From Chloroherpetonaceae bacterium (GTDB lineage Bacteria > Bacteroidota > Chlorobiia > Chlorobiales > Thermochlorobacteraceae): 64,000 bases of DNA. This document shows, one piece after another, positions 3,402 through 27,142 of this stretch; positions within the stretch are counted from its first letter, which is position 1; each line of letters begins with the position of its first letter. The notes under the pieces are model-generated. The model made no database searches. It was given only the letters and a program-made list of their open reading frames with translations, and was not told the DNA's origin. The stretch lies in assembly GCA_033763895.1 (NCBI GenBank), contig JANRJQ010000004.1, positions 1 to 64,000 of the forward strand, written 5' to 3'. A program made the translations under genes and the position numbers.

Positions 3402-4235
3402 TTAATCCAATTCGTTTAGAATATCATCCAAAGAAAGTTTTCTGGAGCTCGGCTTTGGCGGCTCCTCATTTTTTTCAGGTTTTGGTGAAAATTGCTCCAA
3501 TCGAACTTTCTCTTGGTTTATGATTGACGCAGTTGTCGCCCCAAATTCACCACTCTCGCTTGCGCCTTTTTTCTGTTCCGTTTGAGAAACAGGAATCGGT
3601 GTTTGAGTAGAAAAGAATGACGTCTCTTTCTTTTGTGAACTCGTTTCATACAATTGGTTTTCTACATTTGAAGTTGCGGGCAAGTTCTCTAAGTGTGAGG
3701 CAGTTGTAACTGGACCGTTTCCTTGCTCACTTTTTTCTCTAGGTTTAACTTTATGGGGAGAAGTCGCAAAAAGCTCTTCGTTATTTGAAAATGTTTGAAG
3801 CACTTCGAGTTCGCTTTGCAGAAAAATCTTCAACTTTGTTAGCGTTTCAAATTTCTTTTGGATCAGCTTTTCATTTTCAAGCGATAGTTTGAATACCTTT
3901 TGCTTAGCATCATCTTCTAATTCTTTTGATTTAAGGCTCGCCTCTTTAAGGATGTTTTCAGCTTCTTTTCTTGCGTTTTCGATAGTGGCTGCTGATGATT
4001 GCTGCGCTTGAAGCAAGGCTTGTTGAAGCATTTGTTCCACTTCACGATACCTTCTTATTTCGGCATCCTGTTGCGCATTTTTCTTTTTTTCATCCTCCAA
4101 TTCGATTAACAGCGATTCCCATTGCTTTGATAGGGTATCCAAAAAAGAGGAAACTTCAAGTGGGTCTATACCACCCATCATTGCCTTTCGAAATTCGTGC
4201 TTTTTGATTTCAATCGGTGTTAATCTTATCGCCAT
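3402..4235 (-). CDS. DivIVA domain protein
   Basis: This is a coiled-coil cell-pole/division-site or envelope-organising protein of 277 residues. The N-terminal DivIVA motif is clear: the family core with LTPIEIKKHEF and then GGIDPLEVSSFLD (residues 5-32). A long coiled coil follows to about residue 160, rich in Glu, Lys and Gln. The C-terminal 110 residues are low-complexity, Ser/Thr/Glu-rich and probably disordered. A short conserved-looking tail (SLDDILNELD) ends the protein. The yggS gene lies upstream on the same strand, the same neighbourhood as in many bacteria (yggS...divIVA). Its exact role in a Gram-negative FCB bacterium is not established. Confidence 0.85.
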   Translation of the reverse strand: MAIRLTPIEIKKHEFRKAMMGGIDPLEVSSFLDTLSKQWESLLIELEDEKKKNAQQDAEIRRYREVEQMLQQALLQAQQSSAATIENARKEAENILKEASLKSKELEDDAKQKVFKLSLENEKLIQKKFETLTKLKIFLQSELEVLQTFSNNEELFATSPHKVKPREKSEQGNGPVTTASHLENLPATSNVENQLYETSSQKKETSFFSTQTPIPVSQTEQKKGASESGEFGATTASIINQEKVRLEQFSPKPEKNEEPPKPSSRKLSLDDILNELD

Positions 4236-5228: not shown

Positions 5229-6773
5229 ATGCGCCGTGAAATAACACTCCTAAAAGATTCACTCTCAGAACTGACGCGCGAAGCGGTGCTGCTTTTGGGA
5301 GGAAGCATTAATTATACACTTGAAAACTTCAGTGAAAAAGAACTCCGCGATTTTTACAAGCATATATTCACAGAATTAATTGCTGATTTAGAAGAAGAAA
5401 CGAATCAATATCTAAAAAAGTGCCTCATCAAGAATCGTGATTTCTTGGAGGACTTACGAATCGATGAGCGAATTAAGTTGCTGCTTGTAGCGAAAAAAAC
5501 ACTTCTTCAAAAACTTTCCAGTGCACCTTTTTTTGCAGGGGCATCCGCTACACGCATTACCACGATGCTTGAGGAGAGCCTTGTAGAAATTGCGTATGAT
5601 TATGAGATTGAAATCATGAAATCTGAAACTGCAGATATGCTTGTGGCAGATGAAATTGCCGACGAGTTGTATAAAACTAGAAAAAAGCTCGAGCAACAGA
5701 AGCGATTCATCACCTCTTTACTTGAAAACTCCCCTGATGCCATTGCTCTGTTGGACTCAAAACGAAGGGTGCGATTGTGGAATGCTTCTGCCGCTGAGCT
5801 CATTGGCTACAAACCCGTGATGCTTCTTGGGAAATCACTTGAAAAGCTAACGGTTCATGACGGTGATTTTCGCGCGATGATGCGTGAAGCCGATAAAAAG
5901 GGAAAGCTTTTTGGCGTAGAACTCACCTTACGAAGAGCGGACGAATCGATAATTCCGGCGTCTCTATCAGTTTCAATTATTGACGCTGAAAGTGAGAAAG
6001 AACCCGCGTATGTGCTTGTGATTCGAGATGCCTCGGAGATTCGCCAAATGCGTGATCGAGTTATCGATGCCGAGCGGCTTTCAGCAATGGCCAAAATCGC
6101 TGGCGCGGTCGCACACGAAGTTCGAAACCCACTCAATTCTTTAACCCTTAATCTTGACTTACTTGAAGACAGTCTCCCTGAGCAACTGAATGATAAAGCA
6201 AAAAAGCAGCTATATATTTTTCGTGAAGAAATTGAGAAATTGAGTGCAATCGTCTCCAATTATCTCTCACTTTCAAAGCTCTCGAAGATTGAATTTAAGC
6301 CCACTTTGATTTTTCCATTCTTAAACCAAACGATACAGAAGTTTAATGAAGACCGCGAAATCGGGACTGGCCTTATCAAACTCATTTCAACTGAACCTCC
6401 CAAAAATCTTTACGCGAATCTTGACTTACACCAATTCACAAGAGCTTTAACCAATTTATTTCAAAATGCGCTTGAGGCGACTCATTATGAAACCGGAGTT
6501 TATGATGAGTTACATCCAATCGTACTATTTCGTGAAGAGGATGAAGGGCTTCGCATAGAAATTTCCGATACCGGTGATGGGATTCCAAGTGAATTTCAAG
6601 AAAAACTATTTACTCCCTTTTATTCAACCAAAACAGGTGGGACGGGACTAGGGTTATACATTGTTCGTGAAATCATTCAAGCTCATAGAGGTGAAATCGA
6701 AATCAAAAATAAAAGCAACGGTAAGGGAGCTATTGCATCAATTATAATTCCAAAAATGGATTTACTCTCTTAA
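5229..6773 (+). CDS. Cytosolic PAS-domain sensor histidine kinase (orphan)
   Basis: This is a signal-transduction kinase of 514 residues. Residues 1-155 form an alpha-helical domain without membrane segments that resembles the N-terminal sensory domains of RsbR-type stressosome proteins, but I cannot assign it firmly. A PAS domain spans about 160-275 (SPDAIALLDSKRRVRLWN onward). The HisKA helix carries phospho-acceptor His296 in AHEVRNPLNSL. The HATPase domain has the N-box (NLFQNALEAT), the G1 box (DTGDGIP) and the G2 box (GGTGLGLYIV). No transmembrane helix is predicted, so it senses a cytoplasmic cue. No response regulator gene is adjacent; its partner must be encoded elsewhere. Confidence 0.9.
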   Translation: MRREITLLKDSLSELTREAVLLLGGSINYTLENFSEKELRDFYKHIFTELIADLEEETNQYLKKCLIKNRDFLEDLRIDERIKLLLVAKKTLLQKLSSAPFFAGASATRITTMLEESLVEIAYDYEIEIMKSETADMLVADEIADELYKTRKKLEQQKRFITSLLENSPDAIALLDSKRRVRLWNASAAELIGYKPVMLLGKSLEKLTVHDGDFRAMMREADKKGKLFGVELTLRRADESIIPASLSVSIIDAESEKEPAYVLVIRDASEIRQMRDRVIDAERLSAMAKIAGAVAHEVRNPLNSLTLNLDLLEDSLPEQLNDKAKKQLYIFREEIEKLSAIVSNYLSLSKLSKIEFKPTLIFPFLNQTIQKFNEDREIGTGLIKLISTEPPKNLYANLDLHQFTRALTNLFQNALEATHYETGVYDELHPIVLFREEDEGLRIEISDTGDGIPSEFQEKLFTPFYSTKTGGTGLGLYIVREIIQAHRGEIEIKNKSNGKGAIASIIIPKMDLLS

Positions 6774-23227: not shown

Positions 23228-24346
23228 ATGCCCGATTTCTGTGGAGTTAAAGGAAAACTTCGGTTTTTTAACAGCTGTTTCTTCCGGGCGACATTTCTCA
23301 TTCTATTCATGTCCACTTTTATTTTTGACTTTTACCATCGACTTCAAGCCAAAGAACATTCAGCCCGGCCAATCACTTCGACTGTCCTTTCCCTTCATAC
23401 ATCCTCTAAAACAAACAGCCGTGTTGAACTTCGCGAATTTTATTCACCCGCTTTAGGCATAAAAAAGCAATTTCACATTTACCTTCCGCCCAACTACGAT
23501 TCAGATACTGCCCGATACCCTGTGGTGTACCTTTTTCGTGGCCATAACCGTGAATGGTTTAACCCAAGCGAAGACCCAAGCCGCAATGGCCGAACCGTTC
23601 AAGATGTTATGGATTCACTCATTGCTGAAGGCCGCGTTGGTACAATGATCTTGGTTGGCCCTAGCACCGCAAGCGATGATAATTCCACGCCCTGCCTTGG
23701 CGTCAATATGCTTCGCCCCGATTTAGGAACCGGCGGTGGAATCGGAACCGGAAAATTTGAGGATTATTTGATCAAGGATTTAATTCCTCACATCGATTCA
23801 ACCTTTCGAACTTTGGCGAACCGGGAGTCGCGCGGGGTGGACGGATTTTCATTAGGCGGTTACACAGCCATTATGCTCGCGGTGAAACATCCGGAGCTTT
23901 TTTCATCAGCCGGCAGTTACGATGGCACGCACATGTGGCGGAATTTTCACGATACACGCAAAACCACCGCGCAGCCTAACGATTTTACTTGGTGTGAAGT
24001 GGGCTTCTTCAATGCAGCTTTTGGCGTTGCCCCACGAAAAAAACGAGAAATTCTTTCGGTTATGAAAAAATATAACCCTCTTAATATTTTAGCTTCATCG
24101 AAAAAGAAGCACCTTGAGAAAATCAAAGCGATAAAATTTCATATTCTTTCAGGAGCTTATGATGGCGACCTCGGTAACATCGAACGCGCCGAGCACCTCA
24201 TCTTGCATCTGGCGGAGTTTGGCATTTTCAATAGCTTTACCGATGTCCGCTTAACCCCAACTGCCTTGCACGATTGGTATCACTGCAATCTCTATGCAGA
24301 GAAAGTTTTACCGAAACATTGGCAGACGTTTCAGAGCGGGAGATAA
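23228..24346 (+). CDS. Exported esterase of the alpha/beta-hydrolase (esterase D/Fes-like) family
   Basis: This is a predicted exported or membrane-anchored esterase of 372 residues. A hydrophobic signal segment spans residues 18-36. The domain begins near 70 with FYSPALGIKKQFHIYLPPNYD, typical of the esterase PF00756 family. The nucleophile is Ser208 in GFSLGGY. The acid is probably the Asp in SGAYDGD near residue 311, and the base is one of the histidines in ALHDWYH near 351. Substrates in the family include siderophore esters, feruloyl esters and S-formylglutathione; none can be chosen. A decayed copy of its 3' end lies 823 nt downstream beyond a toxin-antitoxin pair. Confidence 0.82.
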   Translation: MPDFCGVKGKLRFFNSCFFRATFLILFMSTFIFDFYHRLQAKEHSARPITSTVLSLHTSSKTNSRVELREFYSPALGIKKQFHIYLPPNYDSDTARYPVVYLFRGHNREWFNPSEDPSRNGRTVQDVMDSLIAEGRVGTMILVGPSTASDDNSTPCLGVNMLRPDLGTGGGIGTGKFEDYLIKDLIPHIDSTFRTLANRESRGVDGFSLGGYTAIMLAVKHPELFSSAGSYDGTHMWRNFHDTRKTTAQPNDFTWCEVGFFNAAFGVAPRKKREILSVMKKYNPLNILASSKKKHLEKIKAIKFHILSGAYDGDLGNIERAEHLILHLAEFGIFNSFTDVRLTPTALHDWYHCNLYAEKVLPKHWQTFQSGR

Positions 24347-24364
24347 TTAAGGAAGTTGGAGAGT

Positions 24365-24787
24365 TTATTTACGCAGTATGGAAAATCCAGCTTGTTCAAA
24401 GTCAGCATCAACAACTAAAGCCTCTTGAATCCCTCGTTCTTTCATAACGACGAATGAAATGCAATCGCACAGACTCGATTTCTTGTCTTTTCTTTCTGAA
24501 AATAGAGTTAACCCATTCAAAAATAACTCTTTAGAGATTTCAATGATTTCTATATCACTTGAGTTTTCAAATGATGAAATGACTTGCGCTGCTGCCAACC
24601 GATAAAGTGGTTTTGAAAGTCTTGCGCCGAGTTCTAATAAAACTGCTCTTGTAGTCAGAAAGCGACTTTGCTTCAGCTTTAACTCTCGATTCATTACTTG
24701 ACTTTGAGCGAGTGCTTTACTGTGATAACTATCGTTTTCAGAAATTAACGCGATGAGAAATCCAGAATCAATAAATACGGTTTTCAT
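24365..24787 (-). CDS. PIN-domain toxin (VapC-like) of a type II toxin-antitoxin pair
   Basis: This is a putative endoribonuclease of 140 residues. The PIN domain acidic residues are present in order: Asp7 in FIDSGFL, Glu52 in LLELGARL, Asp108 in SLCDCISF, and an Asp in VVDADF near 127. Known PIN toxins cleave tRNA or rRNA and are held inactive by their antitoxin. The start overlaps the antitoxin stop by 4 nt (ATGA), which is translational coupling usual for such pairs. The pair lies between an intact esterase gene and a degenerate copy of that gene's 3' end, indicating insertion or local duplication. Confidence 0.82.
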   Translation of the reverse strand: MKTVFIDSGFLIALISENDSYHSKALAQSQVMNRELKLKQSRFLTTRAVLLELGARLSKPLYRLAAAQVISSFENSSDIEIIEISKELFLNGLTLFSERKDKKSSLCDCISFVVMKERGIQEALVVDADFEQAGFSILRK

Positions 24788-25002
24788 TCGGTCTGTTCTT
24801 TTGGCTTATGCATCACCGAAAAATCATTTGGCAGACCTCTCAGCCTAATTTCTTCCAGTTGCTCAAAAATCGTTTGGGTTTGATTTGGTGCCGTTGATTC
24901 CTGAACCTTTATTTCTACGGGTGTACCGTCAGCTAAATCAGGAGTCTCAATTCGAATCGTGCCGTTACGAACCACAGCCCGATAGGTTTTGGTTGTAATC
25001 AT
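24784..25002 (-). CDS. Small antitoxin-like protein paired with the PIN toxin
   Basis: This is a protein of 72 residues. The first 30 residues (KTYRAVVRNGTIRI, then LADGTPVEIKV) form a swapped-hairpin-like beta pattern resembling AF2212/DUF104-type antitoxins of PIN toxins. The second half (IFEQLEEIRLRG onward) is probably the helix that wraps the toxin. Antitoxins of this kind also repress their own promoter. The assignment rests on size, fold pattern and the 4-nt overlap with the toxin gene rather than on a firm family match. Confidence 0.7.
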   Translation of the reverse strand: MITTKTYRAVVRNGTIRIETPDLADGTPVEIKVQESTAPNQTQTIFEQLEEIRLRGLPNDFSVMHKPKEQTE

Positions 25003-25072
25003 ATTTTATCTCAATTGTGTTAGAGCAAACTATTTTCACCGTTACTTTAATCGATAAATATAGTGCTAAGGC

Positions 25073-25172
25073 TTCTAACCCCAACCGCTTTAACGATAGG
25101 TATCACTATAATCTTTATGCTATAAAAGTGTTACCAATGAATAAGATGATGTTTCTGAGCGGGAGAGATTAA
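25073..25172 (+). pseudogene. Degenerate copy of the 3' end of the esterase gene
   Basis: This 100-nt stretch aligns by eye with 24250-24350, the end of the esterase gene; roughly three quarters of positions match, including runs such as ggtatcact and gagcggga. Allowing one frameshift, it still reads NDRYHYNLYAIKVLP...FLSGRD, against HDWYHCNLYAEKVLP...FQSGR in the intact protein. No upstream part of the gene is recognisable, apart from a weak similarity in the preceding 40 nt. It is a remnant of a duplicated or replaced esterase gene. Confidence 0.8.
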
Positions 25173-25203
25173 AGATTTTTTTGTGAGGAATCAGAGGGAT
25201 TTG

Positions 25204-25277
25204 TAGGCTCTGAGGGATTCGAACCCCCGACCTTCTCGGTGTAAACGAGACGCTCTAACCAGCTGAGCTAAAAGCCC
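25204..25277 (-). tRNA. tRNA-Val (anticodon UAC)
   Basis: Read on the minus strand, the 74-nt sequence folds as a full cloverleaf. The acceptor stem begins GGGCUUU and pairs with AGAGCCU (first pair G-U). The D arm is AGCUCAGCUGGUUAGAGC. The anticodon stem CUCG/CGAG holds the loop UUUACAC with anticodon UAC. The T arm has GGGGG-UUCGAAU-CCCUC. The discriminator is A. The 3' CCA is not encoded. It decodes GUA and related valine codons. Confidence 0.97.
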
Positions 25278-26507: not shown

Positions 26508-26903
26508 TCACCAAACTCGAGATAAAGAGGTTCCCCTTAGATATTCATCAAATATTTTATCACCGCTAACGATGTTACAGTTTCTTACAAGTGCTTGAGA
26601 AACGATTAATCGATCAAAGGGGTCGTGGTGAAAAAAAGAAAGCTGATTTAAGTGTATTAACTCTGAAAATTCAATCGGTATGATTTTAAATCCATTGTTA
26701 TTTAAATCGTCGTAAAGTGATTCAAATGGACCTAAAATTTGAAGTTTCCCAAGTGAATGTTTTATTGAAATCTCCAATATACTTGAAACACTTACTAAAT
26801 TTTTAGCACCTCTTGTTTCAATTTCAGCTCTTGCCACTCTTGTAAGCTGAGTGTTTCCACTTAAGTACCAAAGAAATGCGTGGGTATCAATCAATACACT
26901 CAT
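26508..26903 (-). CDS. VapC family PIN-domain toxin
   Basis: This is a type II toxin of 131 residues, probably a site-specific RNase. The PIN acidic residues are in place: Asp6 in LIDTHAFLW, Glu43 in SSILEISIKHSLGKL, Asp95 in HDPFDRLIV, and an Asp in SGDKIFDEY near 114. The DTHAFLW opening is classic for VapC. The antitoxin gene overlaps it by 4 nt upstream. It is a different PIN subfamily from the toxin at 24365-24787, so the two pairs are not a recent duplication. Confidence 0.9.
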   Translation of the reverse strand: MSVLIDTHAFLWYLSGNTQLTRVARAEIETRGAKNLVSVSSILEISIKHSLGKLQILGPFESLYDDLNNNGFKIIPIEFSELIHLNQLSFFHHDPFDRLIVSQALVRNCNIVSGDKIFDEYLRGTSLSRVW

Positions 26904-27142
26904 TTCACATAATCATTAAAGTCTTGTAATGGTGCATCAAAATCATCCGACAAAATATATTTATCTTTTGCACTTCCAAATTCAGGTTCGCCCTTAACTT
27001 TGGTTAGCAGCTTTTTAGAGATAGAATCATTCGATTCCATTTTTTCAACAAATTCAATCACTGAAGCCAATTTCTTTGGGTCTAAATGACTGAGTTTTTG
27101 AACAAGTTTATTGAATAATTGATTTGCCATATTCTTCATCAT
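26900..27142 (-). CDS. DUF2281-type antitoxin partner of VapC
   Basis: This is an antitoxin-like protein of 80 residues. The N-terminal amphipathic part (KLSHLDPKKLASVIEFVEKME) matches the DUF2281 pattern 'LPPEKLxEVLDFVExL'. The C-terminal FGSAKDKYILSDDFDAPLQDF is the toxin-binding tail typical of this family. The stop overlaps the VapC start by 4 nt. An in-frame ATG at 27127 (residue 6) is an alternative start. It begins 9 nt after the end of the large outer-membrane protein gene upstream, so read-through transcription from that gene is possible. Confidence 0.85.
   Translation of the reverse strand: MMKNMANQLFNKLVQKLSHLDPKKLASVIEFVEKMESNDSISKKLLTKVKGEPEFGSAKDKYILSDDFDAPLQDFNDYVK

Follow-up and report, generated by a model that had tools for sequence, protein, structure and literature searches.

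How does a toxin-antitoxin pair come to lie between an intact gene and a decayed copy of the end of the same gene? Chromosomal toxin-antitoxin pairs move between genomes, yet most of them are not accompanied by mobility genes, and the locus described here, in a stretch of 64,000 nucleotides of a Chloroherpetonaceae genome (hereafter, the window), poses this question in a compact form. The gene concerned is an intact esterase gene (23228-24346, plus strand) that was recognized by the Pfam domain PF00756 and by its orthologs. Its 3' end is the part that appears twice, once in place and once on the far side of a pair of small genes.

The best local alignment of the segment 25003-25202 with the esterase gene matches 24252-24343 to 25076-25166 at 75% identity, with a single-base deletion at 24264 and a score of 70, whereas 1000 dinucleotide-preserving shuffles gave a mean score of 20.2 (standard deviation 2.3) and a maximum of 32, so that none of the 1000 reached the observed value. 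The match extends past the stop codon, to 24252-24353 and 25076-25175, with 78 of the 99 aligned positions identical and a score of 73. The proximal target copy thus delimited (24252-24353, plus strand; 102 nt) consists of the last ~92 nt of the esterase gene, the stop codon and ~7 nt beyond it; the distal copy (25076-25175, plus strand; 100 nt) is decayed and carries one frameshift. When the distal copy was compared with the remainder of the window on both strands, the top score was 27, and an independent repeat search ranked the esterase-end repeat first in 3.5 kb. A BLAST search of the remnant against its own genome did not detect the esterase copy, probably for want of an exact run longer than 10 nt. 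The repeat at the esterase end that flanks the pair is real. The original prediction of a degenerate, singly frameshifted repeat of the esterase end, direct and in the same orientation as the gene, was therefore correct apart from a start 2-3 nt away from the predicted one, and the comparison with shuffled sequence that it proposed is the one given above.

The junctions defined by the ends of the direct repeat enclose a unit of 722 nt (24354-25075, minus strand) that contains the toxin-antitoxin pair and nothing else of note. The presence of a PIN toxin-antitoxin pair between the copies had been predicted as well, and the search results agree: the toxin gene (24365-24787, minus strand) encodes a VapC20-like PIN-domain protein (PF01850, E 9.5e-11), and the upstream open reading frame (24784-25002, minus strand), which overlaps the toxin gene by 4 nt, encodes a 72-amino-acid antitoxin. 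The pair is oriented against the esterase gene and fills the unit almost completely, with margins of ~12 nt behind the toxin stop codon and 73 nt before the antitoxin. The acidic PIN positions D7, E52, D108 and D127 are invariant in the family alignment, and the closest relatives of the toxin in the PDB are VapC20 structures (5wzf and 5wz4). The pair shares with VapBC systems the PIN domain with the acidic positions kept and the small, upstream, overlapping antitoxin, but the similarity of the toxin to VapC20 is weak at the sequence level (E 3.6e-6), the antitoxin is unlike the named VapB families, with a likeness to AF2212-like antitoxins that falls below the threshold, and the function is, in this case, predicted. 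Presumably, the pair works as an ordinary VapC ribonuclease restrained by its antitoxin.

Within 24354-25075, no recombinase, integrase or insertion sequence was found, and the unit has no terminal inverted repeat (the end-to-end inverted score is 6, within the range of 4-8 over all units). A possible second gene relic at 25026-25078, which matches positions 1219-1271 of contig C21 of genome G005 (E 0.003 per genome), was treated as chance because the part of genome G003 that should correspond to it gave chance-level scores. A second, unrelated pair of the PIN/DUF2281 type is located nearby in the window, at 26508-27142, and has no flanking repeats. Relatives of the toxin are encoded on five plasmids, at 35-38% identity, and none were detected in viral contigs, so viral carriage of the pair was rejected. 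The nearest related pair, that of G003, consists of a toxin and an antitoxin that were kept together but are found at another place, beside other genes; the lack of a flanking repeat at this closest homologous pair counts against the explanation that we favor below.

The history of the distal copy can be traced with the help of the esterase orthologs, which are present in six genomes of the same order, at 53-63% identity and always divergent from miaA. Among the differences between the two copies of the esterase end, 16 can be polarized with these orthologs, and 14 of the 16 arose on the distal copy; the differences are spread over the first, second and third codon positions as 6, 7 and 9. This concentration of changes on one copy, together with their even spread, indicates decay in the absence of coding constraint. 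Against its own esterase gene, the remnant reaches a score of 70, compared with at most 31 against the orthologs, and it shares with the own gene the ending GAGCGGGAGA, which is absent from the orthologs, so the remnant came from this lineage. By the same evidence, an esterase end brought from another genus is unlikely, whereas a donor of the same lineage is conceivable. Hence, the original suggestion of an insertion beside the esterase end has to be divided: an insertion with a duplicated gene end is supported by the other loci described below, whereas the foreign-genus source is disfavored by the scores. None of the six relatives with an ortholog has a second esterase tail. The genes downstream of the esterase differ in all relatives, which again counts against our preferred explanation.

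Sites with and without a pair can be compared directly at two other genes, which provide equivalents of the empty site originally predicted, an esterase gene followed directly by tRNA-Val. In genome G314, a PIN pair is flanked on either side by a 67-nt copy of the 3' end of a nitrogenase-like gene (PF00148), the two copies being about 90% identical, and in three relatives (G034, G035 and G022) the target is present as a single 67-nt copy directly joined to what is the far flank in G314, the same terminator-like hairpin included. In genome G211, a pair of the same family as the window toxin separates the end of a DUF1848 gene from a ~60-nt copy of this end, which adjoins an ATPase gene; in G231, G284 and G027, the distance from the DUF1848 gene to the ATPase gene is 70-110 nt, and the end is present once. 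Both are insertions with a long target duplication. Some of the relatives are represented by draft assemblies; the window locus and the G314 site lie within contigs of 959 kb and 59.6 kb, respectively. A further genome, G025 (contig C1, near 4394; locus L253), has the pair and the proximal target copy in common with G314, but the similarity ends at the expected start of the distal copy, so a rearrangement of the far side may have followed the insertion.

The same anatomy recurs at other PIN loci, where the left and right flanks of each locus were aligned to each other; for comparison, 3 of 480 random intervals of the window genome score at least 70. A survey of 395 genomes of the phylum yielded 26 further loci with a toxin of the window family, and strong repeats flank several of these. 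The clearest example, in G010, has a homologous pair (44% identity) enclosed by the 3' end of a purine-nucleoside phosphorylase gene and its copy; this unit is 692 nt long, the toxin stop codon is 11 nt from the junction, and the orientation relative to the target gene is opposite to that in the window. Other targets, at PIN loci of the same order, include genes for an ABC permease (target copy of 236 nt), a histidine kinase (42 nt), a flavin oxidoreductase, in this case at the 5' end (204 nt), and another PIN protein (292 nt). Thus, units of about 0.6-1 kb with the pair as their sole content are found repeatedly at genes unrelated to one another, facing either way, and the target copies measure 42 to 292 nt.

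In 60 regions around PIN genes from the same order, a flank score of at least 60 was obtained for 16 of 63 PIN loci compared with 14 of the 329 control intervals taken from these regions (p 8e-7). When the spacing was required to be tight (at most 1.2 kb, a cut-off picked after the data had been seen), the counts are 9 of 63 and 1 of 329 (p 4e-7), where three of the nine tight PIN loci are tandem copies of the pair or low-complexity sequence, L290 and L291 still being counted among the nine. When counted by region, the excess is not significant, with a PIN-gene match in 14 of 60 regions and a control match in 8 of 60 (p 0.24), each region having several control intervals against about one PIN locus. 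Most PIN loci have no flanking repeat, an observation that counts against the preferred explanation; at these loci, either the repeat has decayed or the pair arrived by another route.

Several flanking repeats were not accepted as target duplications. At L290 (contig C16 of G002), PIN genes at 4001 and 4608 stand in tandem, and the repeats span the pair, which amounts to a tandemly duplicated toxin-antitoxin unit, whereas L291 is of low complexity. Also left out were L266, with TPR repeats, L205, a possible dispersed repeat, and L050 (contig C51 of G006, a genome with 13% contamination), a gapped tandem duplication, with an assembly gap, that takes in a helicase-like gene together with a PIN gene and the 5' portion of a third gene. 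At site L193 of G219, a 56-nt repeat within variable DNA between groEL and queC was not interpretable. The flanking repeats at L080, L083, L085, L087 and L088 make up a separate class, which looks like copies of Rhs/YD-repeat cores on a reading of the translations, and were not included in the count: in G000, the genome of the window, five PIN toxin genes (on contigs C12, C9, C7, with two, and C8) are located between apparent core copies, with repeats of 100-275 nt, as if toxin-antitoxin pairs gather in Rhs core arrays. At L269 (contig C62 of G207), the 3' end of a HipA gene is found at 3660-3774 and again at 5325-5439, with a VapC gene and others between the two copies.

The window locus is built like the loci with empty sites and has an older, decayed distal copy, which leads us to the explanation that we consider likely, namely, that a VapBC-type pair entered at the esterase 3' end with a target duplication of ~100 nt, and the distal copy then decayed. 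We infer that the pair was once absent from the window site and that a single event produced both the duplication and the insertion. Under this scenario, ~100 nt of the target would be duplicated in the course of the insertion, one copy staying with the gene, which would remain intact, and the other ending up beyond the pair, where it would afterwards decay free of coding constraint; the addiction module would then be selected for retention. The route would probably be recombination anchored by homology at one end, either as homology-facilitated illegitimate recombination or via a circular intermediate that contains part of the target gene. Illegitimate joining combined with homology on one side is known from transformation studies; this process and a single crossover with such a circle would each produce the scar observed.

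Among the alternatives, the one that fares best, although we regard it as improbable, is that a circle or fragment carrying the pair and an esterase piece from a close relative was integrated by a single crossover, so that the incoming segment brought its own esterase end. Such an event would give direct repeats of variable length without a recombinase, and the two copies in G314, which differ at about 7 of 67 positions, agree with it; however, the donor must already have carried the pair beside the same gene, and the changes in the window remnant resemble neutral decay at the site rather than a functional donor allele. Close behind, and in our estimate a shade less probable, is an initial tandem duplication of the esterase gene, with the pair later replacing most of the second copy and leaving its last 100 nt. 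The final layout would be identical, and the distal copy is indeed a pseudogene-like remnant, but no other esterase fragment is found between the pair and the first copy, and the same coincidence would be required at many unrelated genes, at two of which the relatives possess one copy and lack a second gene.

Integrase-driven islands typically have direct repeats of gene 3' ends, and the tRNA-Val (TAC) gene (25203-25277, minus strand), a neighbor outside the unit that lies 27 nt beyond the remnant, was originally taken as the mark of an integration spot. The locus could, accordingly, be a relic of such an island that has lost its integrase and the greater part of its length, the repeat being an att core situated in the tRNA or at the 3' end of the esterase gene. 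We consider this very unlikely: there is no integrase between the copies, and the tRNA gene does not support this role, given that the best matches to it in the window score 21-26, the chance level, and no part of it is repeated nearby. Integration at the tRNA was rejected on account of this lack of a repeat of the tRNA end, and the gene is probably incidental. Furthermore, a fixed att site does not fit target copies that range from 42 to 292 nt at unrelated genes, next to small units with the pair alone in either orientation. Finally, chance similarity or an assembly artefact, conceivable for a genome in 14 contigs, is a negligible prospect in view of the shuffling results, the position of the locus within a long contig and the divergence of the copies, which is untypical of misassembly.

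The preferred explanation, insertion with target duplication, has a precedent in another class of addiction modules. For some restriction-modification systems, insertion is accompanied by duplication of a long target stretch of variable length, of the order of 100 bp (Nobusato et al. 2000; Furuta et al. 2010; both as cited in the review PMC3874152), and the same work is cited in PMC2654758 in a comparison of these systems with toxin-antitoxin systems. As presented in these sources, the restriction-modification insertions resemble the window unit in comprising an addiction-type gene pair with variable duplications of ~100 bp and no linked mobile element, deduced from related genomes; the cargo here, however, is a type II toxin-antitoxin pair of 0.6-1 kb, in Chlorobiales, and the units are often placed such that the 3' end of the target gene is duplicated. 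In type VI effector and Rhs arrays, an incoming module also leaves a displaced 3' end of a resident gene, for which homology-facilitated illegitimate recombination has been proposed, but there the resident end is replaced and orphaned, whereas at the window locus the resident gene is intact and its end duplicated (PMC5361080). Flanking direct repeats have been read as recombination scars for a Mycoplasma AAA-ATPase/protease toxin-antitoxin module, which belongs to a different toxin family and for which neither a duplicated target gene end nor an empty site is described in passages of that paper (PMC8562856). Beyond this note on Mycoplasma, no earlier report of a long target duplication for toxin-antitoxin pairs was found in the open-access literature; the novelty is provisional because the search covered open-access papers.

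The window locus illustrates how insertion can occur at a gene end without harm to the gene. A recognizable scar, in combination with empty sites, offers a direct and scalable test of how chromosomal toxin-antitoxin pairs arrive, and connects these pairs with the other addiction modules in which such a scar has been described, the restriction-modification systems. Tentatively, and with more doubt than confidence, one could extend this to VapBC pairs in general, as minimal mobile units that insert at the ends of genes, duplicate 40 to 300 nt of the target and leave the gene itself intact, through the process that has been put forward for restriction-modification systems. If true, chromosomal toxin-antitoxin pairs would commonly spread in this way.
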